Shown here: piece by piece, positions 27,797 to 51,073 of the stretch
Layout of the letters: every line of letters starts with the position of its first letter
Numbering within the stretch: position 1 is the stretch's first letter
Source: Salegentibacter salinarum
GTDB taxonomy: Bacteria > Bacteroidota > Bacteroidia > Flavobacteriales > Flavobacteriaceae
DNA: 64,000 nt
Direction of reading: 5' to 3'
NCBI RefSeq assembly: GCF_900168115.1
Contig: NZ_FUZC01000007.1
Coordinates: 62,001-126,000 of the forward strand
Position numbers and translations under genes: made by a program
The notes under the pieces: model-generated
What the model saw: the letters and a program-made list of their open reading frames with translations, nothing else
Told to the model about the DNA's origin: nothing
The model's database searches: none

Positions 27797-28429
27797 ATGC
27801 TACAGGAATTAAAAGAAGCTTACGGATTTATTTTTGAAGACGATTTAATTGAAGAGATTGGAGAGGTAGGTAGTCTACAACAGGTTGCTGCCGGTGAAAA
27901 AATCATTGAAATTGGAGATTATGTAAAAATGATGCCCTTACTAATTGAAGGAGCAATTAAAATTATGCGCGAAGATAAGGATGGCGACGAACTTCTGCTG
28001 TATTTCCTTGAACGTGGCGATACCTGCGCAATGACCCTTTCCTGTTGTCTTGGCCAGACCAAAAGTGAGATTAGAGCCATTGCCGAACGCGATACTAAGT
28101 TGATTATGATTCCCATTGAAAAAATGGAAGAATGGACCTCCAAATATAAATCTTGGCGCGATTTTGTTTTTGAAAGTTACCACGCCCGGCTAAATGAAAT
28201 GCTGGAAACCATAGATACCATTGCTTTTATGAATATGGACCAGCGTTTAATGAAATATCTTCAGGATAAGGCAAAAATCAATCAGAATGAAGTAATTGCA
28301 GCTACCCATCAACAAATTGCTTACGATTTGCATACCTCACGGGTAGTGATTTCCAGGTTATTAAAAAAACTGGAAATTGACGGTAGAATAAAACTGCAGC
28401 GTAACAGTATAGAAATAATGGAACTTTAG
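27797..28429 (+). CDS. Crp/Fnr family transcription factor
   Basis: The 210-residue regulator has a cyclic-nucleotide-binding-type beta barrel (about 20-125), a dimer helix (about 125-145) and a winged helix-turn-helix (about 150-210, with THQQIAYDLHTSRVVISRLLKK). Start: ATG at 27797 preceded by AGGA is chosen over an in-frame TTG at 27761. Cys77, Cys83 and Cys84 (DTCAMTLSCCLG) cluster where other members bind ligand. In the recognition helix the usual Glu of SRE-x-x-SR is Val183. This fits a target other than TGTGA or TTGAT. A GTAAC-N4-GTTAC palindrome lies right after its stop. Confidence 0.9.
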   Translation: MLQELKEAYGFIFEDDLIEEIGEVGSLQQVAAGEKIIEIGDYVKMMPLLIEGAIKIMREDKDGDELLLYFLERGDTCAMTLSCCLGQTKSEIRAIAERDTKLIMIPIEKMEEWTSKYKSWRDFVFESYHARLNEMLETIDTIAFMNMDQRLMKYLQDKAKINQNEVIAATHQQIAYDLHTSRVVISRLLKKLEIDGRIKLQRNSIEIMEL

Positions 28430-28435
28430 TTCTTT

Positions 28436-28479
28436 GTAACCCTTGTTACTGTACAACACCCATATTGCAGGTATTTTTG
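28436..28479 (+). promoter_or_regulatory. GTAAC-N4-GTTAC operator and -7 box, tauE-cydAB operon
   Basis: The palindrome GTAACCCTTGTTAC (28436-28449) is followed after exactly 22 nt by TATTTTTG (28472-28479), a TAnnTTTG -7 box. The ATG lies 19 bp further on. The palindrome centre would be near -41, the class II position of Crp/Fnr activators. Confidence 0.75.
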
Positions 28480-28498
28480 CAGCGTAATAAAATATAAT

Positions 28499-29296
28499 AT
28501 GGAAATACTTGAAATACTGGGTTACGTTGGTGGATTGGTAATTGGTATTGTTTTAGGTCTTATTGGTGGCGGCGGTTCTATCTTAACGGTTCCCGTGCTG
28601 GTTTACTTACTGGCCATTAATCCCGTAACCGCCACTGCATATTCTCTTTTTGTTGTTGGAGCATCCTCCCTGGTAGGCGCTTTTAAAAATATGCAGAAAA
28701 AACTGGTAGATTTTAGAACTGCCATTGTTTTCTCGATTCCTGCTTTTATTGCGGTATACGCAACTCGAAAATGGATGGTACCTGCCATTCCTGAGTCTCT
28801 TTTTAGTGTTGGAGATTTTGAAATCACCAAGAACATTGGTATTATGCTGTTTTTTGCCATTATTATGATCCTGGCTTCAGTTTCTATGATTAGGGAGAAT
28901 GGAAAGAAAAAAACCGAAAATGAAAAAATCAGCTATAATTATCCTTTAATTGTTCTTGAAGGAATTGTTGTAGGTGTTCTCACCGGAATTGTGGGTGCAG
29001 GTGGTGGGTTCCTAATTATCCCGGCTTTAGTGCTTTTAGCAAAACTTCCTATGAAAAAAGCGGTAGCGACTTCCTTGCTAATTATTGCCATTAAATCGCT
29101 TATCGGTTTTATTGGTGATGTTCAAAATATGGATATTAACTGGCTGTTTTTAGCAATTTTTACGGGACTTTCCATGGTAGGTATGTTTATAGGAATTTAT
29201 CTCAATAAATTTATAGATGGAAAAAAACTGAAAAAAGGTTTCGGCTGGTTTGTATTAATAATGGGTATTTATATAATTTGGGCTGAAATTTCGTAA
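28499..29296 (+). CDS. TauE/SafE family sulfite/organosulfur exporter
   Basis: The 265-residue membrane protein has eight or so helices in two halves. Each half begins with the family glycine motif: LGLIGGGGSILTVPVLVYLL and GIVGAGGGFLIIPALVLLA. TauE/SafE proteins move sulfite, thiosulfate-like or organosulfur anions, but substrate cannot be read from sequence. It is the first gene after the palindromic operator at 28436. It is followed closely (24, 55, 2, 2 and 6 bp gaps) by the genes up to 33475, so it probably leads a six-gene operon with cytochrome bd. Confidence 0.9.
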   Translation: MEILEILGYVGGLVIGIVLGLIGGGGSILTVPVLVYLLAINPVTATAYSLFVVGASSLVGAFKNMQKKLVDFRTAIVFSIPAFIAVYATRKWMVPAIPESLFSVGDFEITKNIGIMLFFAIIMILASVSMIRENGKKKTENEKISYNYPLIVLEGIVVGVLTGIVGAGGGFLIIPALVLLAKLPMKKAVATSLLIIAIKSLIGFIGDVQNMDINWLFLAIFTGLSMVGMFIGIYLNKFIDGKKLKKGFGWFVLIMGIYIIWAEIS

Positions 29297-29320
29297 ATTC
29301 TAATCAGGGAAACTGAAGCG

Positions 29321-29774
29321 ATGCCATTTAAAAACTACTTTTTTGTCGGAATGCAGTTTGTGCTTTTTATAGCCTGGATATTCGATATTGAAGCTTTAAA
29401 GTTAAACCGGTTAGAATTTCTTCAGCCGGTTTTTTTAGTTTTAAGCGGAATAGGTTTTTTAATCGTTTTAATTTCAATCCTACAACTCAACACCAATCTA
29501 TCCCCATTTCCAAAGCCAAAAGAAAACGCAATTTTAATAACAAATGGACTCTTTAAATATATTAAGACATCCTATTTACTCCGGTATTATAATTTTTCTC
29601 TTTTTTCTTTCCCTGTATTTTGCTTCCGGGTATAGAATAGGAATTGCGGTTTTATTGCTGATTTTATTCTGGTTTAAATCAGAATATGAAGAACAGCAAT
29701 TATGCTTAAAATATCCAAATTATCGCAAATACCGGAAGGTCACCGGTAGATTTTTCCCTAAATTTATTCGTTGA
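29321..29774 (+). pseudogene. Isoprenylcysteine carboxyl methyltransferase-like membrane protein, frameshifted
   Basis: The first frame (29321-29635) gives membrane segments and then NLSPFPKPKENAILITNGLF. The family motif RHPIYSGII, two more helices and SEYEEQQLCLKYPNYRKY are found in a second frame that ends at 29774. A single extra A in ATTAAGACAT at about 29563 breaks the motif KYI-RHPIYSG. If the base is real the protein is dead, and the rest of the operon must be translated independently. If it is a base error the gene is intact at about 150 residues. Members methylate small thiols or lipids. Confidence 0.75.
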
Positions 29775-29829
29775 AAATTATATTGATAAGCCTTTTTGAA
29801 AGGACTTGAAATCAATAAACTAAAACTGG

Positions 29830-31200
29830 ATGGAGAATTTAGATTATGCCCGCCTGCAAATGGCCTTTACTCTGGGCTTTCACATTATTTTTGCCTGTAT
29901 TGGGATGGTTATGCCTTTTTTTATGGTGGTTTCGCACTACAAATGGTTAAAAACCAGAAATCCTATTTATAAAAGGTTAACTATGGCCTGGTTAAAAGGA
30001 GTAGCAATCTTTTTTGTTACCGGGGCAGTTTCAGGTACTGCGCTTTCTTTCGAACTGGGGATGCTATGGCCGGAATTTATGAAACACGCCGGTCCCATTA
30101 TTGGGATGCCATTTTCCTTAGAAGGTGCTGCATTTTTCGTTGAAGCCATCGCCCTTGGATTTTATCTTTACGGCTGGAATAAACTTCCCGAAAAATTCCA
30201 CTGGTTTACTGGTGTGATAATTGGTGTAGCGGGAGTAGCTTCAGGAATACTCGTGGTTTCAGCAAATGGCTGGATGAATGCACCATCAGGTTTTGAATAT
30301 ATAAATGGTGAATTCACAAATATAGATCCGGTTGCGGCATTGTTAAATCCGGCCTGGTTTACCCAAGCCTTGCATATGACGCTTGCTGCTTTTGTAGCCA
30401 CCAGTTTTGGAGTGGCTGGAATTCATGCTTTTCAAATTTTCCGGAAAAGAAATGTAGAATTACATACCAAAGCTTTTAAAATCGCTATTGTTTTTGGAGC
30501 AATAGCTGCGTTTTTACAACCTATCAGCGGTGATCTTTCAGCCAAAGATGTCGCCGAACGCCAACCGGTAAAACTCGCTGCTATGGAAGCGCATTATGAA
30601 ACCTCAAAGGGCGCCCCACTTTATATTGGTGGAATTGTAGATGAAGAAAACCGAACGGTCTCCAATAAAATTGAAATTCCAAAAGCACTTTCTTTTCTGG
30701 CTTTTGGCGATTTTAATGCCGAAGTAAAAGGATTAAACGATTTCCCTGATAATGAACTCCCGCCTGTGGCCATTGTACACTATGCTTTCCAAACTATGGT
30801 CGGGATAGGTACTTTGTTGATGTTTGCAGGACTAATTTATTTTATCAGTTTGAGAAAGAAAAGCTGGCTTCAGAATAAATATTACTGGTTATTGTTTATA
30901 ATAATTGCGCCTCTTGGTTTTGTAGCGATAGAAGCCGGTTGGATAGTTACTGAGGTTGGAAGACAACCCTGGATTATCCACCAAATTATGAGGACTGAAG
31001 ATGCCGTAACCCCAATGCCGGGTATGAAGTATAGCTTCTTTTATTACCTTTTTCTCTATACTATTCTGGCTATAACAGTAACCTGGTTGATGAACCGACA
31101 AATAAAATCCCTTAATCAGGAAACTTCTGAAGAGAAGGGCACAGGAAATACTTTGAAAAAGAGTTTTAAGCCCACAGGTGGAAATAAAAACAAAGATTAG
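29830..31200 (+). CDS. cydA: Cytochrome bd oxidase subunit I
   Basis: The 456-residue quinol oxidase subunit has nine or so helices. The heme ligand His is in TLGFHIIFACIG (His18), and a second is in TQALHMTLAAF. The conserved GRQPW lies in EVGRQPWIIHQIMRT. The quinol loop is short, as in CIO-type enzymes. It carries electrons from quinol to oxygen in the inner membrane and is expected to be less sensitive to sulfide and cyanide than heme-copper oxidases. It sits in an operon with an exporter and methyltransferases under a GTAAC operator. cydB starts 2 bp after its stop. Confidence 0.96.
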   Translation: MENLDYARLQMAFTLGFHIIFACIGMVMPFFMVVSHYKWLKTRNPIYKRLTMAWLKGVAIFFVTGAVSGTALSFELGMLWPEFMKHAGPIIGMPFSLEGAAFFVEAIALGFYLYGWNKLPEKFHWFTGVIIGVAGVASGILVVSANGWMNAPSGFEYINGEFTNIDPVAALLNPAWFTQALHMTLAAFVATSFGVAGIHAFQIFRKRNVELHTKAFKIAIVFGAIAAFLQPISGDLSAKDVAERQPVKLAAMEAHYETSKGAPLYIGGIVDEENRTVSNKIEIPKALSFLAFGDFNAEVKGLNDFPDNELPPVAIVHYAFQTMVGIGTLLMFAGLIYFISLRKKSWLQNKYYWLLFIIIAPLGFVAIEAGWIVTEVGRQPWIIHQIMRTEDAVTPMPGMKYSFFYYLFLYTILAITVTWLMNRQIKSLNQETSEEKGTGNTLKKSFKPTGGNKNKD

Positions 31201-31202
31201 TT

Positions 31203-32234
31203 ATGTTGTATGTAGTTCTATTTTTCCTCTTGTTTTCGCTGTTATTGTATGTGCTCCTCGGTGGCGCTGATTTTGGTGCCGGTATCGTTGAGTTATTTTC
31301 TTCAGCCAGAAACAAGGAGCATACCCGGGATACAATTTACCGTGTAATGGGCCCAATTTGGGAAGCAAACCATATCTGGCTTATTATAATGCTTGTAATT
31401 TTATGGGTGGCTTTTCCGGCGTATTTTAATGTGATGATAATTTACCTGCATATTCCTTTAAGCCTTGTTTTACTGGGAATTACGTTACGTGGTGTAGCGT
31501 TTGTTTTTCGTCATTATGATGCGGTTTTAGATAAATCTCAGTTTTGGTATAACTGGCTTTTTAGAATTGGAAGTTTTGTAACACCGGTCTTCCTGGGAAT
31601 GTCTTTTGGGGCGTTAATCGGTGGTGAAATTATTATTACCGAAGATTATGAGACCTACGGTTTTTACGATCTTTTTATGCAGCACTGGCTGAGTATTTTT
31701 GCCTTACTGGTTGGATTATTTTATGCCGCACTTTGTGCTTTTTTAGCTTCCACTTTATTGATTGGAGAAGCCGATGGAAAAGCACGGAAACATTACGCGA
31801 AAAATTCGGCTTTTTTTACCATTGTACTCGTCGTGCTTGGCTTTATCCTTATTAGTTATGGATATTTCAGCGAAATAAAATTTGCAGAAGATTTTATTCA
31901 TAATCCGATTTCTTTAGCCTGCGTTGGTTTATCGGGAATCCTTTTATTTCCGCTTTGGAAATTTATAAAAAAAGAATATCGAATTGCCAGTAGGTATTTG
32001 GCAGGTTTCCAGGTAGTTTTAATACTTTTTGCAGCCTTATATGCACATTTTCCTTATATTATAATAACTGCCGAAAAAGAGATAAGTCTGTTAGAAAACC
32101 TTGCACCAGAATCTACCATCAGTAACCTGGCGATTATGCTGCTAATTGGCGGATTTATTATTCTACCGGGTCTTTTTCATTTAATGAAATCTTTTAATAT
32201 GATTAAGTTACTTGAAAAACCTGAAAAAGATTAA
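31203..32234 (+). CDS. cydB: Cytochrome bd oxidase subunit II
   Basis: The 343-residue membrane subunit contains LLGGADFGAGIVELF at the N-terminus and PIWEANHIWLIIMLVILWVAFPAYF, the two most conserved CydB blocks. Eight or so helices are visible. With CydA it forms the bd oxidase. The gene is 2 bp after cydA and 2 bp before the first methyltransferase gene. No CydX-like small gene is visible in the 2-bp gap. Length is in the normal range of short-form CydB proteins. Confidence 0.96.
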   Translation: MLYVVLFFLLFSLLLYVLLGGADFGAGIVELFSSARNKEHTRDTIYRVMGPIWEANHIWLIIMLVILWVAFPAYFNVMIIYLHIPLSLVLLGITLRGVAFVFRHYDAVLDKSQFWYNWLFRIGSFVTPVFLGMSFGALIGGEIIITEDYETYGFYDLFMQHWLSIFALLVGLFYAALCAFLASTLLIGEADGKARKHYAKNSAFFTIVLVVLGFILISYGYFSEIKFAEDFIHNPISLACVGLSGILLFPLWKFIKKEYRIASRYLAGFQVVLILFAALYAHFPYIIITAEKEISLLENLAPESTISNLAIMLLIGGFIILPGLFHLMKSFNMIKLLEKPEKD

Positions 32235-32236
32235 TT

Positions 32237-32851
32237 ATGAAGGAAACAAAATCACATTGGGAAGAGGTTTACGATAAAAAATCACACCAAGATGCCAGTT
32301 GGTACCAGGAAACACCTGCAACATCTTTGGAGTTTATCAAAGAACTGGAATTATCTGAATGTTCAAAAATTATAGATGTTGGGGGAGGAGATTCCAATTT
32401 TGTAGACCATTTATTAAAAGAAGGCTTTCGGGATATTTCTGTTTTGGATATTTCTGAAAGAGCCATTGAAAAGGCCAAAAAACGTCTAAAAGAAGATGCT
32501 GAAAGGGTGAATTGGATCGTTGCTGATGCTTCAGAATTTGAAGCCACACAGGTTTATCATCTTTGGCACGATCGCGCTGCTTTTCATTTTTTAACTGAAA
32601 GTAAACAGATAGAAAATTATATACGAACCCTAGAAAATTCGGTAGCTTCAGGCGGATTTGTAATTCTGGCAACATTTTCAACAGAAGGGCCGGAAAAATG
32701 TAGTGGAAGAACCATTAAGCAATATTCAAAAAAAGATCTTCAGGAATTATTAAAGCATAAATTTCAACTTTTAAAATTCAAAAATATAGATCATAAAACC
32801 CCGGGCGGGGCTATTCAGAACTTTACATTTTGTTGTTTCAAGAAAAAATAA
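32237..32851 (+). CDS. Class I SAM-dependent methyltransferase
   Basis: The 204-residue enzyme has SAM motif I IIDVGGGDSNFVDHLL (about 45-60), an acidic residue ending strand 2 (VLDISERAI), and VYHLWHDRAAFHFL as motif IV. The phrase FSTEGPEKCSGRTIKQYS is typical of a subgroup related to TPMT/TehB-like thiol or oxyanion methyltransferases. The substrate is unknown, but its place 2 bp after cydB in a sulfur-linked operon makes a thiol or sulfide substrate attractive. This is inference. It ends 6 bp before a second methyltransferase gene. Confidence 0.85.
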   Translation: MKETKSHWEEVYDKKSHQDASWYQETPATSLEFIKELELSECSKIIDVGGGDSNFVDHLLKEGFRDISVLDISERAIEKAKKRLKEDAERVNWIVADASEFEATQVYHLWHDRAAFHFLTESKQIENYIRTLENSVASGGFVILATFSTEGPEKCSGRTIKQYSKKDLQELLKHKFQLLKFKNIDHKTPGGAIQNFTFCCFKKK

Positions 32852-32857
32852 AAGCTT

Positions 32858-33475
32858 ATGAAAGAATTTTGGAACGAACGTTATGCCGATGCAGATTATG
32901 TTTACGGCAAAGCACCTAACGAATATTTTAAAGAGAAAATTGATGAAATGCAACCCGGTAAAATTTTGTTACCGGCCGAAGGCGAAGGAAGAAATGCTGT
33001 GTACGCGGCAGTCCTGGAGTGGGAGGTTTCTGCGTTTGATATTAGCATAAAAGGAAAGGAAAAAGCTTTAAAACTGGCCCAAACTGAAAATGTTGAAATT
33101 GATTATAAAGTAGGAGGTCTACCCCAACTTGATTATAAAGAGGAACAGTTTGATTGTATTGCCTTAATTTTCGCCCATTTTTCAGAAGATAAAAAGGATA
33201 ACTACCTGAAGCGGTTTAAACAATTATTAAAAGGAGGCGGCGTAATTATTTTTGAAGCTTTTAGTAAAGAACAAATAGATATTCAGAAAGATAATCCAAA
33301 ATCTGGTGGCCCTAAAAATGCTGAAATGCTATTTTCTAAAGAAGAATTGCAAACCTGTTTTAGCGGTTATGAATTCGAGGAATTTGAGGATTTAATCACC
33401 GAGCTTTCAGAAGGAAAGTTTCACCAGGGAAAAGCAGCAGTAATTCGTTTTGTAGCGCGAAAACCATTAAACTGA
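32858..33475 (+). CDS. Class I SAM-dependent methyltransferase (TPMT/TehB-like)
   Basis: The 205-residue enzyme begins EFWNERYADADYVYGKAPNE, a TehB/TPMT-like opening in which WxxRYxxxxYxYG is common. Motif I follows as KILLPAEGEGRNAVYAA, and FDCIALIFAHFSED in motif IV. It would methylate a small nucleophile, possibly a thiol, selenide or tellurite-type compound; not proven. It is the last gene of the operon that begins at 28499 and is followed by a strong bidirectional terminator at 33481. The two adjacent methyltransferases differ clearly in sequence and are not a recent duplication. Confidence 0.87.
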   Translation: MKEFWNERYADADYVYGKAPNEYFKEKIDEMQPGKILLPAEGEGRNAVYAAVLEWEVSAFDISIKGKEKALKLAQTENVEIDYKVGGLPQLDYKEEQFDCIALIFAHFSEDKKDNYLKRFKQLLKGGGVIIFEAFSKEQIDIQKDNPKSGGPKNAEMLFSKEELQTCFSGYEFEEFEDLITELSEGKFHQGKAAVIRFVARKPLN

Positions 33476-33520: not shown

Positions 33521-35176
33521 CTATTGAAACTCATAATCCGTTCCCGGAACTGTTGAAAAAGATTTTTCTCCCAGATATTCACAATAGGCCCGGCCATCTA
33601 ATTTTGGCGAGACCGGAGAATGCTTTTGTAAATATTCTTCTACTACTTCGTGAATAGTATAATCTTTTACTTCTACATCTTTTACATTTGACATTCGGCA
33701 AAGATTGTCAATTGGATCACCAGGGCGAACACAGGCTGAAATCGTATAGTATTCATCTTCCTGCATTTCTGCTCCGTTTACAGTAACCGATTGTATACGT
33801 TCCCCTTTTTCATTTTGAGAATCGAAATCGACTTCCATTCCAGAAAATCTTACCAGCCAGCCCCCAAAACGTTCAATTGAATTTTGGGCAAATGCATTGT
33901 GCATTTCATTTTCCAGCCAGTTTTTAATTTGTTTTCCACTGGCTTTCCCGGTTTTAACTTTTTCATTTACCGGTAATAAATTCCACAAATTTGCTCGGGT
34001 GATGGGCGCAGCCTCACCGTTTTCGGGAACTATAGGATTTCCGAAGCGGAATCCGTTAGAAATCGAAATATCGGCACCGGTTTTCCATCGAGCCGCATCG
34101 GTGATCATATTATCCATTGGGTTCTCCACAGTCAGGTAGCGGTAAAGCGGAGTTTCGGTATAGCCAACCACGGTTTCTAAATATTCTTCGTAAGGAGCTT
34201 TTGCCTTTTTAACCAATTCGGCAATTTCGGGAGCAGCCGGATATCTTTCAGGGTCTACTTCCATTAATTCATACTTCTGATCTACAATTTCACCATCTTT
34301 AAAATAAAGATCCAGTTTTCCCACAAAAGAACCAAAAGCGCCCGGTTCGGTCACTTTGGCGTATTTTCCCTGAATGGGTTCCCGAACGCGTTCGTGCGTA
34401 TCGTTCCCAAAGATATAATCTACATCTTTCGCAATCTGGCTATTTGCTAATTCTACCTGTTTAAAAATTCCGAAATGAGTAACGAGAAATAGCGCATCAA
34501 CTTTTTCTTCATTCTTTACTTTCTGAATCACTTCTTCTACACCATCTTCCAGTCCGCTAAAACCAATTCCCTCGCTAAAAATTGGATTTTGTCGCACGGG
34601 AACATCTGGATCGTTAATTCCAATAAATCCCAGTTTTACGCCTTCAATTTCTTTAGTCCAGTAAGGGGGGAAAAGCTCTTTTTGATCTTTATCGTGAAAC
34701 ATATTCTGAACAATCACCGGGGTTTCAAAACCCTGTAAAACGTCCATCATCACTTGCTTACCATAAACTACTTCCCAGTTTCCCGGCACAATAAGGTCGT
34801 AATCCATATTTTTTATAATGTCCGGGAAGATTTTCCCTTCAGACAGCGCGGCATATCCACTACCCTGGATCAGATCGCCGCCATCTAGAATAATTGTATT
34901 CGGATTTTTAGCTCTTTCTTCTTCGAACAGGGTTTGAATATGTGCCAGTCCGCCACGTTCTTTAAAAACTATTTCTTCATTTTCCCAGAATAATTCGGGA
35001 TGGGCATCTAACTGACCGTGAATATCTGCAGTTTGAAGAATGGTAATTTTAGTAGCGTTTTCTTTCCTGTCTTCTTTGTCTTTACCTTCTGCATTTAAGC
35101 ACGAAGTAAAAAGTGTAAGTCCCAAAACTCCTGAAAATAGAAGGAGTATTGATTTTATTTTTTTATTGAAAATCAT
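33521..35176 (-). CDS. SoxB-like metallophosphoesterase/5'-nucleotidase-family lipoprotein
   Basis: The 551-residue protein has a lipoprotein signal ending in LFTSC. A metallophosphoesterase domain comes first (ILQTADIHGQLDAHP, LDGGDLIQGSG, then GNWE, THFG and NDTHERV). The C-terminal domain runs about 310-520, with NMITDAARWKTGADISISNG, FRFG, WLENEM, GGWLVRFSGMEV and YYTISACVRPGDPIDNLC. GNWE instead of the usual GNHE, and the C-terminal pattern, resemble SoxB, which hydrolyses sulfate from thiosulfate bound to SoxYZ. No soxYZ is near, so the substrate is uncertain. It lies in a cluster with DsrE and DoxX genes. Confidence 0.75.
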   Translation of the reverse strand: MIFNKKIKSILLLFSGVLGLTLFTSCLNAEGKDKEDRKENATKITILQTADIHGQLDAHPELFWENEEIVFKERGGLAHIQTLFEEERAKNPNTIILDGGDLIQGSGYAALSEGKIFPDIIKNMDYDLIVPGNWEVVYGKQVMMDVLQGFETPVIVQNMFHDKDQKELFPPYWTKEIEGVKLGFIGINDPDVPVRQNPIFSEGIGFSGLEDGVEEVIQKVKNEEKVDALFLVTHFGIFKQVELANSQIAKDVDYIFGNDTHERVREPIQGKYAKVTEPGAFGSFVGKLDLYFKDGEIVDQKYELMEVDPERYPAAPEIAELVKKAKAPYEEYLETVVGYTETPLYRYLTVENPMDNMITDAARWKTGADISISNGFRFGNPIVPENGEAAPITRANLWNLLPVNEKVKTGKASGKQIKNWLENEMHNAFAQNSIERFGGWLVRFSGMEVDFDSQNEKGERIQSVTVNGAEMQEDEYYTISACVRPGDPIDNLCRMSNVKDVEVKDYTIHEVVEEYLQKHSPVSPKLDGRAYCEYLGEKSFSTVPGTDYEFQ

Positions 35177-35217
35177 ATTATGTTTTTTCTTTCTTGAGTT
35201 TTATATAGCTAAAATGT

Positions 35218-35250
35218 GTACGTCATGCTGAATTTGTTTTAGCATCTAGT
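35218..35250. repeat. Palindromic intergenic repeat, copy 1
   Basis: GTACGTCATGCTGAATTTG then TTTTAGCATCTAGT forms a short hairpin (TGCTGAA with TTTAGCA). Related copies are at 49957-49990 and, inverted, at 53001-53031. Confidence 0.6.
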
Positions 35251-35319
35251 TTCTTAACCAGTCAAACCTCCAATAAAAATCGCAGCAGGCTCTGAATCAA
35301 GTACATGTTGACGTTCTTA

Positions 35320-35736
35320 TTAAAGTTCGATACTGAAATAACCTTTTTTCTGTAGCTGAAAATCGTATAGAATACCGTTTTCAACAATTTCCATTTCAGA
35401 AGGGATTTTTTCCGGGTCTACTCCAAATTTTTTCAGGGAAAATCCGCAGGCTTTAAGTTCTACTCCTGCTTTTTCTGCCCTGTGTGTAAATTTTTTCATT
35501 TCCTCGAGATTGATTAAACCTTTTACGGTCTGCCCGCAAACAATAACCTGGAAATCTCCAAAATGGTGTCCGTCTTCTTTTTTCAATTCTTCCGCAGTAA
35601 TTAAAATGGGTTGCAATTGCGGAATTTTCTTGGTCAAAACCACGTAGTTATTTTTTTCTGTGTCGTGCTTTTGTGCTTGTGTTTTTACTGAAAACAGCAT
35701 TAAAAAAGCTGTAAATATTAAAATTATCTTTTTCAT
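35320..35736 (-). CDS. DsrE family protein, exported
   Basis: The 138-residue protein has a signal peptide (KKIILIFTAFLMLFSVKTQA) and a DsrE-like alpha/beta domain. DFQVIVCGQTVKGL and VELKACGFSLKKFGVDPEKI carry Cys residues in places typical for sulfur-carrying DsrE/TusD-type proteins. The mature protein would act in the periplasm, perhaps as a sulfane-sulfur carrier. It lies 36 bp after a DoxX gene on the same strand and 143 bp before the SoxB-like gene. Its start gives a normal signal sequence. The carrier role is inferred from the family. Confidence 0.8.
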   Translation of the reverse strand: MKKIILIFTAFLMLFSVKTQAQKHDTEKNNYVVLTKKIPQLQPILITAEELKKEDGHHFGDFQVIVCGQTVKGLINLEEMKKFTHRAEKAGVELKACGFSLKKFGVDPEKIPSEMEIVENGILYDFQLQKKGYFSIEL

Positions 35737-35772
35737 TTTTTAAATTTTTTAGGCTGTAATAGCCGGTTATAT

Positions 35773-36174
35773 TTATGTTTTTTGTTGATCTTTAAAATCG
35801 TTTAGGATGAAAAACAGAAGTCCGCCGGAAATCGCTACATTTTTAAATAGCGGCCCCAGTGTTGTAATTTGCCCCACCTGCACAGTTAAGGTAATAGGGA
35901 TTAAAATAGCAAGTAAAACTGCTGCTGTCCAGCGGGTCTTAAAGCCTAATAATAGTGCGACTCCCGCAATAAGCATCACAATTCCGGAGATCATTACCAG
36001 CAACTCCGGATTGCCGAAAAAATATGCGATTCCTTTAAAATTGGCCTGATCAATCCTGTTAACTGTTTTTTCAAGATTAAGCAAATGATTAAAACTGGCC
36101 ACGAGAAATATCCCGCTGAGCATCCCTCGTAACACTTGTATAGAGCGACGACTCACTAAAATTTTTGTATTCAT
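35773..36174 (-). CDS. DoxX family membrane protein
   Basis: The 133-residue protein has four membrane helices with RVLRGMLSGIFLVASFNHLLN-type first helix, ELLVMISGIVMLIAGVALLLGFKTRWTA and a last helix before NDFKDQ. This is the DoxX/DoxD family plan. Some members form a thiosulfate:quinone oxidoreductase, and others support oxidative stress defence. It is 36 bp upstream of dsrE-like and 58 bp downstream of a hypothetical gene, with a terminator-like hairpin in that gap. It may therefore depend on readthrough or a weak promoter of its own. Confidence 0.8.
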   Translation of the reverse strand: MNTKILVSRRSIQVLRGMLSGIFLVASFNHLLNLEKTVNRIDQANFKGIAYFFGNPELLVMISGIVMLIAGVALLLGFKTRWTAAVLLAILIPITLTVQVGQITTLGPLFKNVAISGGLLFFILNDFKDQQKT

Positions 36175-36196
36175 TGAAATTTAGAATTAGTGAAAA

Positions 36197-36228
36197 ATAA
36201 TCTTCTCCGGATTTGTGCCCGGAATTAT
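36197..36228 (-). terminator. Terminator-like hairpin before the DoxX gene
   Basis: On the minus strand ATAAT-CCGG pairs with CCGG-ATTAT around an 8-nt loop, followed by a TTTTT run. It lies just after the stop of the hypothetical gene at 36233 and could attenuate transcription into DoxX-DsrE. Confidence 0.55.
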
Positions 36229-36232
36229 CTTA

Positions 36233-36589
36233 TTAAGCCACTAATACTTTTGGAGGAGGGTAATTTTTTAAAAAGTAAATAGAAATCACCGTAGGATTTA
36301 AATATCCAAAATCCAGGTGATTATTTACTTTTTGCGGTTCGGGTAAGCTGATTTTAGAAAGATGAAAGGGTGAATTACACAAGGCATCTGAACTAATAAT
36401 CAATATTGAAGATTCTTGTGAATAAGTATCAGTAGAACCCAAGGGGTGTATTTTTTTCTTACAGAAAGGATTTACCAATGCGATTTCTTCGGTATCTAAA
36501 ATGCTATTCAACACTTTCGCATCGAGCATTAGGAATTTTCCGAAGAAAACCACGGCAAGAAAAATCGCTATGTAAGATTTTAATTGCAT
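36233..36589 (-). CDS. Hypothetical protein with one N-terminal membrane segment
   Basis: The 118-residue protein opens with a hydrophobic segment (SYIAIFLAVVFFGKFLML) that could be a signal anchor or uncleaved signal. The rest is polar, with two separate Cys (PFCKKK and ALCNSPF). I do not recognise a family. Its start codon overlaps the stop of the acetolactate-decarboxylase-like gene (TAATG), which implies coupled translation and a related role. It ends in a prominent proline pair (NYPPPKVLVA). A surface or periplasmic location facing outward is probable. Confidence 0.7.
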   Translation of the reverse strand: MQLKSYIAIFLAVVFFGKFLMLDAKVLNSILDTEEIALVNPFCKKKIHPLGSTDTYSQESSILIISSDALCNSPFHLSKISLPEPQKVNNHLDFGYLNPTVISIYFLKNYPPPKVLVA

Positions 36590-37287
36590 TATTCCGGTAG
36601 GTATAGTTTTAAATTCTTTGGATCGAAATCAACCTGATCCAAATGACCCATTTCTTTTTGATCTTCTGTAATTAAATGAAGATGTATAAAAGTATCGTGA
36701 TGGGTGAAAATGGCCTGATGTTTTCGAGAGAAAAAACCAAGTATTTCTACCTTTTTATCGGTCAGGTTATAATTTGTAAGTCCTTCGTGAGCTTCTTTTG
36801 GAGAGCTAACCTTACTGCCTTTTGGCAAGTTTACAATATGAATATCTGCTGAATTAATTTTTCCTTTAAGTCGAAAAGGGAAAGCTTCATGATTCTTAGG
36901 GGTCAATTTATCCAGGAAATCCTCTAAACTTTTCAACGAAGTGACCGAACTGGGAAGTGATACTGATTTCCATTTTGAAACTTCAGCATAAACAAAAAAC
37001 GGTGCTTTTACAGATTCGATTTCTTCAACTTGCATTGAATTTTCATCCCCCACTGAAGAATTATAAATGATTCCATCTAAAAGCAGCAATTCACCCCTAA
37101 GGAATTCTATGGGCCCAAGTCCATAAACACCTTTATTTGCCAAAGAATCTAAAGAAATGCTACCTCCAAGTTCTCCTTTCATCATCACATTTTTCATTGC
37201 ACCGGCAACATTCACACTGCTATTTTGAGCAAGAGCAGAAAAGCCTATAAGAAGGCTAAAAAGAAAGAAAGTTTTTTGTATTCCCAT
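36589..37287 (-). CDS. Secreted alpha-acetolactate decarboxylase family protein
   Basis: The 232-residue protein has a signal peptide (KTFFLFSLLIGFSALAQ) and the AlsD/BudA fold. EFLRGELLLLDGIIY carries the early Glu, FPFRLKGK the Arg, and IHLHLITEDQKEMGHLDQ the three zinc His (H-x-H and GH). All residues expected for activity are present. The usual enzymes are cytosolic and make acetoin, so export is odd and the real substrate may differ. Start ATG 37287 is preferred: the in-frame TTG at 37296 lies inside the -7 box. The transcript would be leaderless or nearly so. It is controlled by the 37324 palindrome. Confidence 0.8.
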   Translation of the reverse strand: MGIQKTFFLFSLLIGFSALAQNSSVNVAGAMKNVMMKGELGGSISLDSLANKGVYGLGPIEFLRGELLLLDGIIYNSSVGDENSMQVEEIESVKAPFFVYAEVSKWKSVSLPSSVTSLKSLEDFLDKLTPKNHEAFPFRLKGKINSADIHIVNLPKGSKVSSPKEAHEGLTNYNLTDKKVEILGFFSRKHQAIFTHHDTFIHLHLITEDQKEMGHLDQVDFDPKNLKLYLPE

Positions 37288-37293
37288 TTGCGG

Positions 37294-37337
37294 CAAATAT
37301 AATTAGAACAATTTAAAGTTAGCGTAACTAATGTTAC
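37294..37337 (-). promoter_or_regulatory. GTAAC-N4-GTTAC operator and -7 box, minus-strand operon
   Basis: GTAACTAATGTTAC (37324-37337) is followed on the minus strand after 22 nt by TATATTTG (37301-37294), a perfect -7 box. The ATG at 37287 lies only 6 nt past it. Confidence 0.75.
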
Positions 37338-37355: not shown

Positions 37356-37399
37356 GTAACGCATGTTACTGTGGCAGGCCGGAAGATTCAGGACATTTG
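37356..37399 (+). promoter_or_regulatory. GTAAC-N4-GTTAC operator and -7 box, porin-MFS operon
   Basis: GTAACGCATGTTAC (37356-37369) is followed after 22 nt by GACATTTG (37392-37399), which keeps the TTTG half of the -7 box. It overlaps an in-frame ATG at 37363 that therefore cannot be the gene start. Confidence 0.72.
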
Positions 37400-37425
37400 C
37401 ATTCCGAATCTATAAATTTAATTAT

Positions 37426-38811: not shown

Positions 38812-40050
38812 ATGAATGATATAAAATTAGGTCTAAAAGAAAACTGGAAGCAATTTAGCTTATTGGTTCTTGTTAATGCCTTTGTTGGTGGTATGGTTGG
38901 TTTAGAACGCAGTATTCTGCCGGAGATTGCCGAAAAGGAATTTGGCATAGCAGCAACCAGTGCTATTTTATCTTTCATTGTGGTTTTTGGTGTGGTAAAG
39001 GCGATTACTAATTATTACGCCGGTGCATTGGCCAACAGGTTTGGAAGAAAGAATCTTTTAGTACTGGGATGGATTTTTGCTATTCCAATTCCGTTTATCC
39101 TGATTTATGCTGAAAACTGGAACTGGATTATTGTTGCAAATGTTTTGCTGGGTATTAACCAGGGGCTTGCCTGGAGTAGTACAGTGGTGATGAAAATTGA
39201 TCTAGTAGGGGAAAAGCAGCGTGGTTTTGCCATGGGATTAAATGAATTTGCCGGCTACTTTGCCGTAGCGGTGGTAGCTTTTTTGACCGGGTGGATCGCT
39301 TCAGAATATGGGGTTAGGCCTTATCCGTTTTACCTGGGAATTGTACTTATGATCCTGGGATTACTTTTTAGTATTTTCTTTATAAAAGATACCCGGCATC
39401 ACGTGGCAAAAGAAGAGGGCAGCAGCGGCATGTCCCGTTTAAAAAATATTTTCTGGGATACTACCTGGAAAGATAAAAACCTTGGTTCTGTAAGTCAGGC
39501 GGGTTTGATTAATAATCTTAACGACGGGATGGCCTGGGGTTTATTTCCTATTTTACTTTCCGGAAAAGGATTTAACCTTGAACAAATAGGAATTGTAACT
39601 GCACTATATCCTGCAGTTTGGGGAATAGGCCAATTATTTACGGGAAAAATGGCAGATATTTTTAGTAAGAAAGATATGCTTTTTATCGGGATGCTTTTAC
39701 AGGCAATAATGTTGGTGATTTTAATTTGGGCTGAAACGATGACGCATTTTGTAATACTATCTTCTTTACTCGGTTGGGGAACAGCTATGGTTTATCCCAC
39801 TTTCCTGGCAACTATTGCCGATAATACCCATCCACAAGACAGGGCAAAAAGTATTGGTATCTTCAGGCTTTGGCGAGATATGGGTTATGCCATTGGAGCA
39901 GTGCTCACAGGGGTGATTGCCGATTTGGTTAATATAGAAGCCGCCATTATGCTCATTGGCATTCTTACTTTAATTTCTGCAATTATTATTCTTTTCAGAA
40001 TGGATTATAAAGATAATAAAGCACTGAAATTATTAAAACTTAAGAATTAG
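38812..40050 (+). CDS. MFS transporter
   Basis: The 412-residue permease has twelve helices with the conserved loop 2-3 motif ANRFGRKNLLVLG and the domain-linker gap near residue 200. The loop between helices 8 and 9 repeats it as GKMADIFSKKDML. The family cannot be narrowed from motifs alone. It follows the porin gene by 15 bp and is in the regulon of the 37356 operator. This suggests transport of a compound tied to sulfur or anaerobic metabolism. No signal of truncation is seen. Confidence 0.88.
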   Translation: MNDIKLGLKENWKQFSLLVLVNAFVGGMVGLERSILPEIAEKEFGIAATSAILSFIVVFGVVKAITNYYAGALANRFGRKNLLVLGWIFAIPIPFILIYAENWNWIIVANVLLGINQGLAWSSTVVMKIDLVGEKQRGFAMGLNEFAGYFAVAVVAFLTGWIASEYGVRPYPFYLGIVLMILGLLFSIFFIKDTRHHVAKEEGSSGMSRLKNIFWDTTWKDKNLGSVSQAGLINNLNDGMAWGLFPILLSGKGFNLEQIGIVTALYPAVWGIGQLFTGKMADIFSKKDMLFIGMLLQAIMLVILIWAETMTHFVILSSLLGWGTAMVYPTFLATIADNTHPQDRAKSIGIFRLWRDMGYAIGAVLTGVIADLVNIEAAIMLIGILTLISAIIILFRMDYKDNKALKLLKLKN

Positions 40051-42243: not shown

Positions 42244-42287
42244 GTAACAAAAGTTACTGCCCTAAATGTAGGATTATTATATTTTTG
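42244..42287 (+). promoter_or_regulatory. GTAAC-N4-GTTAC operator and -7 box, desaturase-PDO operon
   Basis: GTAACAAAAGTTAC (42244-42257) is followed after exactly 22 nt by TATTTTTG (42280-42287), a TAnnTTTG -7 box. The TTG start codon is 23 bp further on. Confidence 0.75.
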
Positions 42288-42310: not shown

Positions 42311-43225
42311 TTGGAAAAGTATTTAAATATAATTGCAGATTCTTTTAGCGGGTATTTTAATTACCTCGTTAATGAAATTAGCAATCCGTCGTGGACCAAT
42401 TATTTTTATTGGTTAATTGGTTTGTCACTGTTGGTTTGGATATTGGAAATTATAATCCCCTGGAGAAAGGCACAAAAGATATTTCGAAAGGATTTCTGGC
42501 TGGATACGTTCTATATTTTATTTAATTTTTTCCTGTTTTCGCTGGTTGGTTATAACGCGATTTCAAATGTGGCCGTAGAATTGTTCAATGACTTTCTTGG
42601 TTTATTTGGAATCACGAATATTGTGGCTATTGAAGTTCAAAATTTTCCAATTTGGGTGCAACTGCTAATAATGTTTGTTATAGCCGATTTTATCCAGTGG
42701 AATGTTCATCGGCAATTGCACAAGCAACCGTGGCTGTGGGAATTTCACAAAGTACACCACAGCGTTAAGGAAATGGGTTTTGCCGCACAATTCAGGTTTC
42801 ATTTTATGGAAACTATTGTTTATAAAACCGTGCAGTACATTCCACTGGCAATGATAGGTTTCGGAATCCAGGAATTTTTTGTGGTGCATATGTTTGCAGT
42901 TTTTATCGGGCATTTAAACCACGCGAATGTGGGCTGGAATTATGGTGTTTTTGGATATCTGTTGAATAATCCTAAAATGCATATCTGGCATCATTCTAAG
43001 GCACTGCCTGAAGACAGACCTTACGGAATGAATTTCGGCTTGAGCCTGAGTATTTGGGATTATTTGTTCGGCACAGCTTATATTCCGCAGGAAGGAAAAG
43101 ATATAGAATTAGGTTTTGAAGGAGACGAAGATTTTCCTAAAGATTTTAAAAATCAAATGGTGTTTCCATTTCGAAAAAAGAACGCACAAAAAACAGTTTA
43201 TAATTTAAAAGAGTCAAAAAAATGA
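42311..43225 (+). CDS. Sterol desaturase/fatty acid hydroxylase family membrane protein
   Basis: The 304-residue protein has four or so membrane helices and the eight-histidine di-iron motif set: HRQLHK, HKVHHS, HLNHAN and HIWHHS. These oxygen-using enzymes hydroxylate or desaturate lipids. The start is a TTG at 42311, as no ATG precedes the first helices; it lies at a normal distance from the -7 box. The stop overlaps the next ATG by four bases (ATGA), so it is translationally coupled to a persulfide dioxygenase-rhodanese. The substrate is unknown, and a link to sulfur lipids is speculation. Confidence 0.85.
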   Translation: MEKYLNIIADSFSGYFNYLVNEISNPSWTNYFYWLIGLSLLVWILEIIIPWRKAQKIFRKDFWLDTFYILFNFFLFSLVGYNAISNVAVELFNDFLGLFGITNIVAIEVQNFPIWVQLLIMFVIADFIQWNVHRQLHKQPWLWEFHKVHHSVKEMGFAAQFRFHFMETIVYKTVQYIPLAMIGFGIQEFFVVHMFAVFIGHLNHANVGWNYGVFGYLLNNPKMHIWHHSKALPEDRPYGMNFGLSLSIWDYLFGTAYIPQEGKDIELGFEGDEDFPKDFKNQMVFPFRKKNAQKTVYNLKESKK

Positions 43226-44562
43226 AAATAAAACAATTTAAAGACGATCCTTTAGCGCATTATTCTTACGCACTGGTAAGTAATGGAGAAATGGCTTTGG
43301 TAGATCCAAGCCGTAATCCAATGCAATACTATAAATATGCCGAAGAAAATAATGCTAAATTAGTAGCGGTATTTGAAACTCACCCGCACGCCGATTTTGT
43401 AAGTGGACATTTGCAAATTCAGCAGGAGACTGGGTCAACCATTTATATTAGTAAAAAAGTTGGCGTTGAATATACGCATACTCCTTTTGATGAAGGCGAT
43501 GAGGTAAAGATTGGAAATGCCAGTATCAAAGCGATACACACTCCAGGTCACTCACCAGATAGCTTAACATTTATAGCTGAAGAAAATGGTGAAACCATAA
43601 TGTTTAGTGGAGATACACTTTTTATCGGCGATGTTGGAAGGCCAGATTTACGTGAAAAAGCCGGGAATATGAAGGCTAAACGTGTAGAATTGGCAAAGCA
43701 GATGTATAAAACTATGCAAACCAAATTTAACGATTTGCCAGATGATACCATAATCTATCCGGCTCACGGTGCAGGTTCCCTTTGTGGAAAAAATATGAGT
43801 GATGCCTCTTCCAGTACATTAGGAAATGAACGCCAGGGGAACTGGGCTTTTAAAGATCAAACTGAAGAAGAGTTTGTAAAAGAAATTCTAAAAGACCAGC
43901 CCTTTATTCCTTCATATTTTGGTTTTAGTGTAGAGTTAAACCGAAAAGGAGCTATAAATGTTCAAAAAGCGAAATATGAAGTTCCGGTGAAACTCTATGT
44001 AGATTCTGTAAAAAAAGAAGGAATTACTGTGGTAGATACACGTGACGGGGATGCTTACAAAAAAGGACATTTACCGAATAGTATTAATATTATGGCACGT
44101 TCAGAAAGTGATAAATTTGAAACCTGGTTAGGTGCTATTATTGAGCCGGAAGAGGAATTCTACTTGGTAGCTGAAGGTGTAGATCAAATTGATGAGTTGC
44201 TGGAAAGAACTGCGAAAATCGGTTATGAAAAGCAAATGAAAGGTGTGGTAACTTTATCTGAAAAAGTTTCAAAATCTTCAGATGAGTTTAATTTGGAAGA
44301 TTTTAAAGCGAATAAAGATAAGTATACGATTGTTGATATTAGAAATGAAAGCGAGATTGCTGAAGGAAAGATTTTTGACGATGCTAAGGCAATTCCGTTG
44401 AATGAGCTTAGAAACCGTGCAGATGAATTGCCAGATGATAAACCGTTTATGGTACATTGTGCCGGTGGATATCGTTCTGCAGCAGGAAGTAGTATTCTTG
44501 AGAATAAATTTAAGAATACCAAAGTTTATGATCTAAGTGAAGCGATTAAAGAGTTTTCATAA
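43222..44562 (+). CDS. Persulfide dioxygenase-rhodanese fusion (MBL-rhodanese)
   Basis: The 446-residue protein has an N-terminal metallo-beta-lactamase domain of the ETHE1/PDO type. Iron ligands are H54 (in ETHPHADF), H110 (HTPGHSPDS) and D131 (FSGDTLF). The HxHxDF variant is usual in this group. Two rhodanese domains follow, at about 255-345 and 355-446. The first lacks the catalytic Cys (FYLVAEGVDQ). The second keeps it in VHCAGGYRS (C413). The enzyme should oxidise glutathione or other persulfide to sulfite and pass on sulfane sulfur. It is cytosolic, and is the second gene of an operon under the 42244 operator. Confidence 0.92.
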   Translation: MKIKQFKDDPLAHYSYALVSNGEMALVDPSRNPMQYYKYAEENNAKLVAVFETHPHADFVSGHLQIQQETGSTIYISKKVGVEYTHTPFDEGDEVKIGNASIKAIHTPGHSPDSLTFIAEENGETIMFSGDTLFIGDVGRPDLREKAGNMKAKRVELAKQMYKTMQTKFNDLPDDTIIYPAHGAGSLCGKNMSDASSSTLGNERQGNWAFKDQTEEEFVKEILKDQPFIPSYFGFSVELNRKGAINVQKAKYEVPVKLYVDSVKKEGITVVDTRDGDAYKKGHLPNSINIMARSESDKFETWLGAIIEPEEEFYLVAEGVDQIDELLERTAKIGYEKQMKGVVTLSEKVSKSSDEFNLEDFKANKDKYTIVDIRNESEIAEGKIFDDAKAIPLNELRNRADELPDDKPFMVHCAGGYRSAAGSSILENKFKNTKVYDLSEAIKEFS

Positions 44563-45230: not shown

Positions 45231-45286
45231 TTCCGTGAGCAAATTGCATTAGGCAATTATCATGGAATCAAAATTTATAAAAAATA

Positions 45287-46729: not shown

Positions 46730-46758
46730 ATCTAGATTATCGAGTAAAAAATAAATTG

Positions 46759-49956: not shown

Positions 49957-49990
49957 GTACGTCACCCTGAATTCATTTCAGGGTCTACTT
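49957..49990. repeat. Palindromic intergenic repeat, copy 2
   Basis: GTACGTCACCCTGAATTC then ATTTCAGGGTCTACTT: CCCTGAA pairs with TTTCAGGG. It matches copies at 35218 and 53001 at the TACGTCA, CTGAA and TCTA positions. It may double as a terminator of the dehydrogenase gene. Confidence 0.6.
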
Positions 49991-50026
49991 TTCTTCGACC
50001 TTGAAGGTTTTTTAAAATTTTTTCCT

Positions 50027-50070
50027 GTAACATTTGTTACTGTCTTCCTTCGTAAATTCTATTTAATTTG
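50027..50070 (+). promoter_or_regulatory. GTAAC-N4-GTTAC operator and -7 box, yeeE operon
   Basis: GTAACATTTGTTAC (50027-50040) is followed after 22 nt by TTAATTTG (50063-50070), a near-consensus -7 box. The ATG is 22 bp further on. Confidence 0.73.
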
Positions 50071-50092
50071 CACCTCATTAAAAAAATGGACT

Positions 50093-50650
50093 ATGGAATG
50101 GATTTTTGAGCCCTGGCCCTGGTATGTATCGGGTCCGCTTATAGCTTTTACAATGTTTTTGTTAATTTTTATCGGGAAGCAATTTGGCATGTCTTCTAAC
50201 CTTAGAACTATGTGCACCATGTGCGGCGCCGATTCTAAAGCCGATTTCTTTGATTTCGATTGGAAATCTCAACGCTGGAATCTTATTGTAGTTGCAGGAG
50301 CAATTATCGGTGGATTTATTGGAGCAAATTTATTGAGCGATGATCTTTCTGTAGCGATAAATCCTGATACGGTTACAATTTTGGAAGACTTAGGTTTTAA
50401 TAGTGCAGGTAAAGCATATTTACCAACCGAAATTTACAGTTGGGAAGCCGTTGGCGGAATTAAAGCGCTTATCATTCTATTGGTTGGCGGAATCTTAATT
50501 GGTTTTGGCGCTCGGTATGCCGGTGGTTGTACTTCGGGGCACGCTATTTCCGGGCTTAGTAATTTGCAGTTACCTTCTTTAATTGCTGTTACTGGATTTT
50601 TTATCGGTGGTTTGGTGATGGTGCATTTATTATTTCCGCTAATATTTTAA
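50093..50650 (+). CDS. YeeE/YedE sulfur transporter, half 1
   Basis: The 185-residue membrane protein has four or so helices and the family motif GFGARYAGGCTSGHAISG, whose Cys lines the thiosulfate path in YeeE (TsuA)-type transporters. An N-terminal Cys pair (TMCTMCGADSK) is also seen. It is one half of the usual protein; the other half is encoded 9 bp downstream. Substrate is probably thiosulfate, sulfide-like sulfur or persulfide, following the family. It is the first gene after the 50027 operator. An in-frame ATG at 50086 is also possible as a start. Confidence 0.88.
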   Translation: MEWIFEPWPWYVSGPLIAFTMFLLIFIGKQFGMSSNLRTMCTMCGADSKADFFDFDWKSQRWNLIVVAGAIIGGFIGANLLSDDLSVAINPDTVTILEDLGFNSAGKAYLPTEIYSWEAVGGIKALIILLVGGILIGFGARYAGGCTSGHAISGLSNLQLPSLIAVTGFFIGGLVMVHLLFPLIF

Positions 50651-50659
50651 ATTGAAATT

Positions 50660-51073
50660 ATGAGAAGTATAGGATATTTATTGATTGGTATATTTTTTGG
50701 AATCGTAATGTTTAAGTCTGAAGCCGCTTCGTGGTTCAGAATTTATGAAATGTTCCAGTTCCAGTCGTTTCATATGTATGGAATTATGGGGTCGGCATTG
50801 CTTTTAGGAGTTATTGGTGTTCAAATTATAAAGCGTAAAAACCTGAAATCTTTTTTTGGTGAACGTATTTCATTTATTCCAAAGGAGAAAGGTTTTAGCC
50901 GCTATATGTACGGTGGAATTATCTTTGGATTAGGTTGGGCGCTTGCCGGAGCCTGCCCGGGACCAATTTTCACCTTAATTGGTGCAGGATTTTTACCGAT
51001 TTTAATTGTATTTATTGGTTCACTTTTAGGAACATTTTTATACGGATTGCTTCGGAAAAGACTTCCGCATTAA
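50660..51073 (+). CDS. YeeE/YedE sulfur transporter, half 2 (DUF6691-like)
   Basis: The 137-residue membrane protein starts with MRSIGYLLIGIFFGIVMFKSE and contains GLGWALAGACPGPIFTLIGAG, the second-half YeeE motif with its conserved Cys. It follows half 1 by 9 bp. The two halves together equal a full YeeE/YedE transporter and probably form a heteromer in the inner membrane for sulfur-compound import. No rhodanese or TusA gene follows directly; sulfur handling is spread over other operons in the same regulon. It is followed by a convergent TRIC-type gene. Confidence 0.88.
   Translation: MRSIGYLLIGIFFGIVMFKSEAASWFRIYEMFQFQSFHMYGIMGSALLLGVIGVQIIKRKNLKSFFGERISFIPKEKGFSRYMYGGIIFGLGWALAGACPGPIFTLIGAGFLPILIVFIGSLLGTFLYGLLRKRLPH

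Follow-up and report, generated by a model that had tools for sequence, protein, structure and literature searches.

The operator considered here has been described before. The published consensus of HcpR2, GTAACnnnnGTTAC (PMC1274295), is the same motif as the inverted repeat GTAAC-N4-GTTAC found in a stretch of 64,000 nucleotides of the Salegentibacter salinarum genome (hereafter the window), where a gene for a Crp/Fnr-family regulator begins at position 27797. In the available text of that study, the target of HcpR2 is hcp, its residue at the position of CRP E181 is Pro, the residue there correlates with the motif, and the HcpR regulon extends to sulfate-reduction genes in Desulfovibrio (PMC1274295).

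Sulfide-detoxification genes are elsewhere controlled by the persulfide or polysulfide sensors CstR, SqrR/BigR and FisR (PMC9774590), the last of which is, like the regulator proposed here, an activator with three conserved cysteines. However, these sensors belong to other regulator families, and the accessible portion of that review names no dedicated Crp/Fnr sensor. Within the Crp family, A. baumannii Crp is reported to be persulfidated and Vfr and PrfA to be activated by glutathione, but no dedicated sulfur regulon is tied to them in the accessible portion of the source (PMC7315123). The closest solved structure is a Crp/Fnr protein of Eubacterium rectale (PDB 3dv8; profile E 6e-20, fold E 7e-14), which is 24% identical to the 27797 regulator in the fold alignment and whose title assigns no function. 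Among the open-access titles and abstracts listed, none concerns this regulator (subscription papers were outside this scope). The fold and the motif are already known. None of the open-access entries listed described their pairing with sulfur genes as a regulon, the loop of cysteines or the spread of the system across the family. The original prediction knew of no described regulon with this motif and content; the motif itself had already been published.

The operator-promoter architecture at this locus is conserved, it co-occurs with the regulator, and it stands before a set of genes to export, oxidise or trans-sulfurate sulfide, sulfane sulfur, sulfite and thiosulfate. This appears to be a conserved regulon that is present in most of the flavobacteria examined. 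The interpretation that we favour, with a probability of roughly 0.52, is that the 27797 protein is a Crp/Fnr activator acting at -41.5 on a sulfur regulon and sensing reactive sulfur through a cysteine loop.

Operator and promoter architecture

There are five copies of the perfect form GTAACNNNNGTTAC in the window, compared with 0.02 expected, and a count of five was reached in none of 100 shuffles. A scan of the window that allowed one mismatch to GTAAC-N4-GTTAC gave no additional site. Exactly 22 nucleotides separate the palindrome from a TAnnTTTG-like box at all five sites, and every box ends in TTTG, with three of the five fitting TAnnTTTG strictly. Because the available text of PMC9723704 places the flavobacterial promoter box of F. 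psychrophilum at -12 to -5, this gap puts the palindrome centre at -41.5, the class II activator position. A dyad-symmetric operator at this predicted position is characteristic of the Crp/Fnr superfamily. The original prediction had reported the five palindromes, the constant gap and a centre near -41, and each was confirmed, as was a Crp/Fnr gene directly before the first site, only 6 nucleotides away.

The same arrangement recurs in the 80 named loci (1.527 Mb), which are the best 80 of at least 563 relatives of the regulator. By Poisson rank, GTAAC tops all 5-N4-5 inverted repeats, with 213 copies compared with 1.2 expected and at least one copy in 76 of the 80 loci. Next in rank are CACGC (8 copies, all in one locus) and ATGAC (14 copies, 0.8 expected). 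The spacer of 4 alone is enriched, and other spacer lengths of GTAAC give 0-4 copies. TTTG starts 26 nucleotides past the palindrome at 132 of 425 oriented sites and at 0-6 sites for any other offset, while TAnnTTTG starts at 22 nucleotides at 108 of the 425 and at 0-2 for each other offset from 0 to 44. These 108 strict sites read tGTAACnnnnGTTACTG, and 80 of them have a purine at the predicted +1. All 108 sequences are distinct, wherein the arms and the box are conserved and the remainder varies. Strict composite sites lie outside open reading frames (ORFs) of at least 150 amino acids in 60 of 62 cases. Of the other palindromes (n=22, four with a looser box), 12 are inside and 10 outside long ORFs.

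A survey covered 299 genomes of the same family; 255 have the regulator (cut-off E 1e-20), and 214 have the composite, defined as GTAACNNNNGTTACN{20,24}TANNTTTG. The composite is present in 210 of the 255 genomes with the regulator and in 4 of the 44 without it (Fisher 2e-21, which is a guide only because the genomes are related); the latter four are 73-87% complete. As counted from the table of genomes, the reversed composite occurs in 22 of the 299. Among 247 genomes of the phylum, a homologue (E 1e-30) is present in 93 and the composite in 27, of which 23 are among the 93. Of the four others, G517 and G525 have the composite before hcp, and G407 and G482 look like chance. The regulon proposed from five operators is therefore supported in its own genome and beyond, since it recurs in relatives and tracks the presence of the regulator. 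Tabulation of downstream genes likewise came out largely as expected for the composite, but the frequency of the bare palindrome shows no effect.

The genome that holds the window (G000:C13:62001-126000; 4.31 Mb in 40 contigs) contains 12 perfect palindromes, with 4 for the reversed-pattern control. Contig C13 holds six, of which five are those of the window and the sixth precedes a thioredoxin-family gene. Another five are on C39, and the last, on C24, falls within a gene resembling a topoisomerase subunit by eye. When TTTG is required at the same distance and one mismatch is allowed, there are 15 sites compared with 4 for the control. The fifteenth lies inside a long ORF, and the other 14 precede operons of two parallel gene sets. 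They include one imperfect box and three imperfect palindromes; two of the latter lie upstream of paired rhodanese genes (C35 and C39) and the third upstream of DoxX/DsrE/SoxB-like genes (C39).

A second regulator, 74% identical to the first, is encoded on C39 in a second cluster with the same operators. This cluster carries TauE, HMA, TlpA, DsbD, SoxB-like, DsrE, DoxX, porin-like, MFS (major facilitator superfamily), PDO-rhodanese (persulfide dioxygenase-rhodanese), rhodanese and YeeE genes, where HMA and DsbD are Pfam assignments and the other labels reflect resemblance to window genes. It adjoins pieces of an Arm-DNA-binding integrase, a TraG-type coupling protein and a DUF5712 protein (L013, L014, L272; about 10-37 kb). 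A plasmid location was rejected, as the contig has chromosomal housekeeping genes by eye. The paralogous sulfur cluster may have been brought in by an integrative element.

Genes of the predicted regulon

There are 136 composite sites in 74 of the 80 loci when the box is loosened to ....TTTG at 21-23 nucleotides. The first downstream ORF encodes TauE at 40 of these sites, PDO-rhodanese at 26, YeeE at 17, a fatty-acid hydroxylase at 6, the regulator at 4, rhodanese at 3, a porin-like protein at 2, TlpA at 2 and CydA at 1; seven sites have no ORF. The remaining 28 are unassigned and resemble by eye SulP, SQR, DUF983, cytochrome c, TolC and a sulfite-oxidase-like protein. A second sample consisted of 60 sites in listing order, of which 58 have an ORF, and 25 of its 35 families are listed. 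Here the outer-membrane efflux protein TolC is found 18 times, rhodanese 9, SulP 6, metallo-beta-lactamase 6, TauE 5, AhpC/TSA 3 and DUF983 2, together with single cases that include cytochrome bd and YeeE. TauE, PDO-rhodanese, rhodanese or TolC are also found downstream of the composite in distant families. The candidate regulon is one of sulfide and sulfane-sulfur detoxification genes, as is characteristic of reactive-sulfur sensors.

The TolC genes can head longer runs. At L085:11208-17118 a composite precedes TolC, a fusion protein, an RND pump (PF00873) and a 101-amino-acid protein, and YeeE comes next. The 101-amino-acid protein is PII-like by eye, and a Pfam search gave no match. A similar composite-headed run of TolC, membrane-fusion protein, RND pump and small PII-like protein (by eye) is present at L120:14272-20633.

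The features of the window are collected in Table 1, with gene identities from Pfam, NCBIfam and PDB searches.

Table 1. Regulator, operators and associated genes in the window.
Feature	Coordinates	Strand	Basis or detail
Crp/Fnr-family regulator (cNMP_binding + HTH_Crp_2)	27797..28429	+	Pfam, alignment, homologues, AlphaFold/Foldseek
Operator 1, GTAACCCTTGTTAC	28436..28449	+	box TATTTTTG 28472-28479
TauE/SafE family permease, first gene of operon 1	28499..29296	+	PF01925
cydA-cydB, cytochrome bd oxidase	29830..32234	+	PF01654, PF02322
Two S-adenosylmethionine (SAM)-dependent methyltransferases	32237..33475	+	PF13649, PF08241, TehB-like scores
Hypothetical protein (118 amino acids), DoxX, DsrE-like, SoxB-like metallophosphoesterase, downstream of operator 2	33521..36589	-	Pfam, NCBIfam
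Acetolactate-decarboxylase-like (AlsD-like) protein, secreted by eye	36589..37296	-	PF03306 E 6e-21; TIGR01252 below cut-off
Operator 2, reads leftwards	37294..37337 (palindrome 37324-37337)	-	box TATATTTG 37294-37301
Operator 3, GTAACGCATGTTAC	37356..37369	+	box GACATTTG 37392-37399
Porin-like outer-membrane protein (label by eye)	37363..38796	+	ORF and translation
MFS permease	38812..40050	+	PF07690; no assigned substrate
Operator 4, GTAACAAAAGTTAC	42244..42257	+	box TATTTTTG 42280-42287
Fatty-acid-hydroxylase family membrane protein	42311..43225	+	PF04116
PDO-rhodanese fusion-like protein	43222..44562	+	PF00753 + PF00581
Operator 5, GTAACATTTGTTAC	50027..50040	+	box TTAATTTG 50063-50070
Split YeeE/YedE-type sulfur transporter pair	50093..51073	+	PF04143 both; DUF6691 second

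Most gene labels of the original prediction agree with these searches, namely TauE/SafE, cytochrome bd, the methyltransferases, AlsD-like, DoxX/DsrE/SoxB-like, PDO-rhodanese and split YeeE/YedE. The protein called desaturase-like belongs instead to the fatty-acid-hydroxylase family. In the operon described as porin plus MFS, the permease was confirmed, but a Pfam search with the porin-like protein gave no match. From their position, cydA-cydB probably belong to operon 1, and both methyltransferases are probably in the same operon as the TauE/SafE gene.

Some starts and family assignments carry qualifications. The listed start of the longest porin-like ORF falls within operator 3, and the true start is probably a TTG near 37426. 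For the AlsD-like gene, ATG 37287 is, as judged by eye, a likelier start than the listed TTG, which overlaps the box of operator 2. The transcript of this gene may be almost leaderless. A Pfam search of the ORF at 36233-36589 found no family. The top PDB match of the SoxB-like protein is SoxB (2wdc, E 1e-29), followed closely by a nucleotidase (3ivd, E 2e-25), and its score with TIGR04486 is 257 of 550 bits, below the cut-off. PDO-rhodanese matches 3tp9 (E 3e-62), 3r2u (E 1e-60), BpPRF 5ve3 (E 1e-19) and ETHE1 4chl (E 4e-13). The YeeE/YedE pair reaches 38 of 400 bits with the model of the thiosulfate transporter TsuA, far under its cut-off. Between PDO-rhodanese and YeeE, at 44745-48300, are biotin-carrier, biotin carboxylase and carboxyltransferase-like genes (by eye) that have no operator of their own.

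The regulator and the reader of the site

The regulator belongs to the Crp/Fnr superfamily, with matches to PF00027 (40.7 bits) and PF13545 (33.1 bits) that are both above cut-off. The family has mostly been linked to the sensing of cyclic AMP or oxygen. With the curated CRP equivalog NF008732, whose cut-off is 266, the regulator scores 49.9 bits. The start was taken as ATG 27797, and an upstream TTG at 27761 is also open. Its closest named relatives are from Salegentibacter species (93, 92 and 89% identity). Characteristic features are three cysteines, C77, C83 and C84, and the recognition helix SRVVISRLLK. The cysteines, R182 and V183 are present in all 30 aligned regulators, including Val at the position of CRP E181. 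Among 117 hits from 110 loci, which are chosen best matches partly from related genomes, C-x5-C-C occurs in 109. The combinations include C-C-C with Arg-Val in 102 hits, C-C-C with Arg-Glu in 7 and C-S-G with Arg-Val in one (G119). At the E181 position there are 103 Val, 14 Glu and no Pro, and more distant Glu types can be without C84 (six loci).

The residue at this position at first seemed to track the motif. Among distant C-C-C homologues, the surrounding 20-kb locus has GTAAC sites in 6 of 7 cases with Val (three of the loci from one genus) and in none of 7 with Glu (two from one genus), and none of six loci of further Glu types has such a site. This measure of specificity was withdrawn, because four Glu-type genomes carry the composite at TauE, PDO, rhodanese and TolC genes and the residue therefore does not tie the motif to the regulator. 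Among the loci of Glu-type homologues L217-L223 and L282-L285, seven have no GTAAC site within 10 kb, and in several Glu-type genomes the genes for TauE, PDO and rhodanese follow a composite. What connects the site with its proposed regulator is that the two lie close together and co-occur, and that the cluster is duplicated.

Other Crp/Fnr proteins are present in these genomes. A PF13545 search of the own genome found three, with Glu at the E181 position by eye. In 7 of the 80 loci (L068, L071, L077, L083, L090, L092 and L111), a second paralogue, which retains just the first of the three cysteines, is encoded no more than 10 kb from the regulator. This paralogue (GESCVMSVTTL type) was considered as the reader of ATGAC-N4-GTCAT and rejected, since that repeat occurs in 1 of the 7 loci with the paralogue and in 11 of the 73 without.

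Proposed mechanism and its alternatives

The 27797-28429 protein is predicted to bind GTAAC-N4-GTTAC centred at -41.5, where it would act as a class II activator and bring sigma-A RNA polymerase to TAnnTTTG promoters. From the operator position we infer that it activates rather than represses. The signal would be reactive sulfur, as persulfide or polysulfide, sensed through C77, C83 and C84. By eye, the loop that holds these cysteines would replace the cyclic-nucleotide phosphate-binding cassette, at the phosphate-binding place of CRP. PDO would oxidise persulfide, and rhodanese and DsrE would pass on sulfane sulfur. TauE, which we take to have the role of a sulfite exporter, would export sulfite, and cytochrome bd, which keeps respiration going, would sustain respiration. 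YeeE, linked to thiosulfate movement in the available text of PMC9774590, would move thiosulfate.

Several observations weigh against this interpretation. A sensor of reactive sulfur would be expected to conserve at least two cysteines that can join through di- or polysulfide links. C83 or C84 is absent in some relatives that keep the regulon: G119 (C-S-G) retains sites at sulfur genes, G305 (C-G-G) has the composite before TauE and PDO, and G444 (C-C-A) has it before rhodanese. Only C77 is thus general, and the regulon can persist where C83 or C84 is lost. Loop residues 79-86 have a pLDDT below 50 and are the least certain part of the AlphaFold model, such that cysteine geometry from the model was rejected as evidence. 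The regulators retain Asp/Glu at 75 and Lys/Arg-Ser at 89-90, residues that resemble those of a site for an anion or nucleotide. The composite is absent in 45 of the 255 family genomes with a homologue. In G452, G404, G444 and G394, where all profile matches are Glu types, it occurs elsewhere before TauE, PDO, rhodanese or TolC. In G517 and G525, which lack a 27797-type regulator, it stands before hcp; which regulator reads a site therefore cannot be told from the site alone. Finally, some members have no clear sulfur role, including TolC, the largest class in the second sample (18 of 58), the fatty-acid hydroxylase, the acetolactate-decarboxylase-like protein and porin-MFS, and the porin-MFS operons of the own genome have no proven sulfur role.

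The most serious competitor, which we nevertheless consider unlikely, is that a small anion such as thiosulfate, sulfite or a cyclic nucleotide binds in a modified cNMP pocket, with the cysteines being structural or modulating. The cNMP_binding domain is above cut-off, positions 75 and 89-90, which by eye we take to match CRP E72, R82 and S83, resemble cassette residues, and the loss of C83/C84 in regulon-bearing relatives fits as well. However, the three cysteines are kept in nearly all hits, position 89 is mostly Lys, and the loop is longer than that of CRP by eye. Alternatively, the cysteines might hold an iron-sulfur cluster or metal, as in FNR, so that oxygen, nitric oxide or redox state is sensed and the sulfur genes answer anoxia indirectly. 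This is more doubtful still. It is favoured by cydAB in operon 1 and by cytochrome bd as the first gene at 1 of 58 and 1 of 136 sites, but there are at most three conserved cysteines, none in the N-terminal arrangement typical of FNR, and no other anaerobic-respiration family is among the 25 families listed for the 58 ORFs.

The shared consensus raises the further prospect that the protein is an HcpR2-type nitrosative-stress regulator whose sulfur genes are an extension of a nitric-oxide response, much as the HcpR regulon reaches sulfate-reduction genes in Desulfovibrio (PMC1274295). In G517 and G525 (L287, G517:C12; L288, G525:C3; L311; L312), the composite before hcp (PF03063) has operator-box gaps of 23 and 22 nucleotides, similar to those here, and a Pro-type (SRPSLAREL) Crp/Fnr is encoded in each, directly beside the site in G517. 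This is what the available text of PMC1274295 predicts for HcpR2. Yet neither genome has a match to the 27797 regulator profile at 1e-10, which indicates that the lineages are distinct. Furthermore, a PF03063 search found no hcp in the own genome, whereas the same search was positive in 5 of 14 control genomes. The regulator here has Val rather than Pro, a cysteine loop and downstream sulfur genes rather than hcp, and we therefore regard this identity as improbable. The composite at both hcp and sulfur genes points to an operator-promoter module common to two Crp/Fnr lineages. That the palindromes are chance or a dispersed repeat rather than operators has almost no probability left. The bare 14-mer does not exceed its reversed control in many of the 299 genomes (for example, 5 compared with 20 in G001, although the own genome has 12 compared with 4), making plain counts unusable as a sole measure, and this also speaks against any simple reading of the motif. 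The strongly non-random signal lies instead in the gathering of sites around the regulator and in the composite of palindrome and box. Its fixed geometry, and distinct sequences that vary outside the arms and box, already contradict chance.

A broader version of the reactive-sulfur interpretation is more tentative. One Crp/Fnr lineage may have converted its pocket for cyclic nucleotides into a polysulfide sensor built on cysteines, and may now serve Flavobacteriaceae as their principal activator for sulfane sulfur, acting through the operator-promoter module with which HcpR2 controls hcp in relatives. Its regulon would include a TolC-MFP-RND efflux operon, where MFP is the membrane-fusion protein, that was not earlier tied to sulfur and that possibly exports sulfur or thiol products. 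The motif and promoter rule tie this operon, DUF983, SoxB-like, DoxX and AlsD-like proteins, members to which no function has been assigned, to one signal, which is directly testable. If the interpretation is true, the Crp/Fnr sensor would add a fold beside persulfide sensors of the CsoR, ArsR and FisR types, as these are presented in the available text of PMC9774590, and sulfide tolerance would gain a regulator in a large family whose members live in the sea and in other environments.

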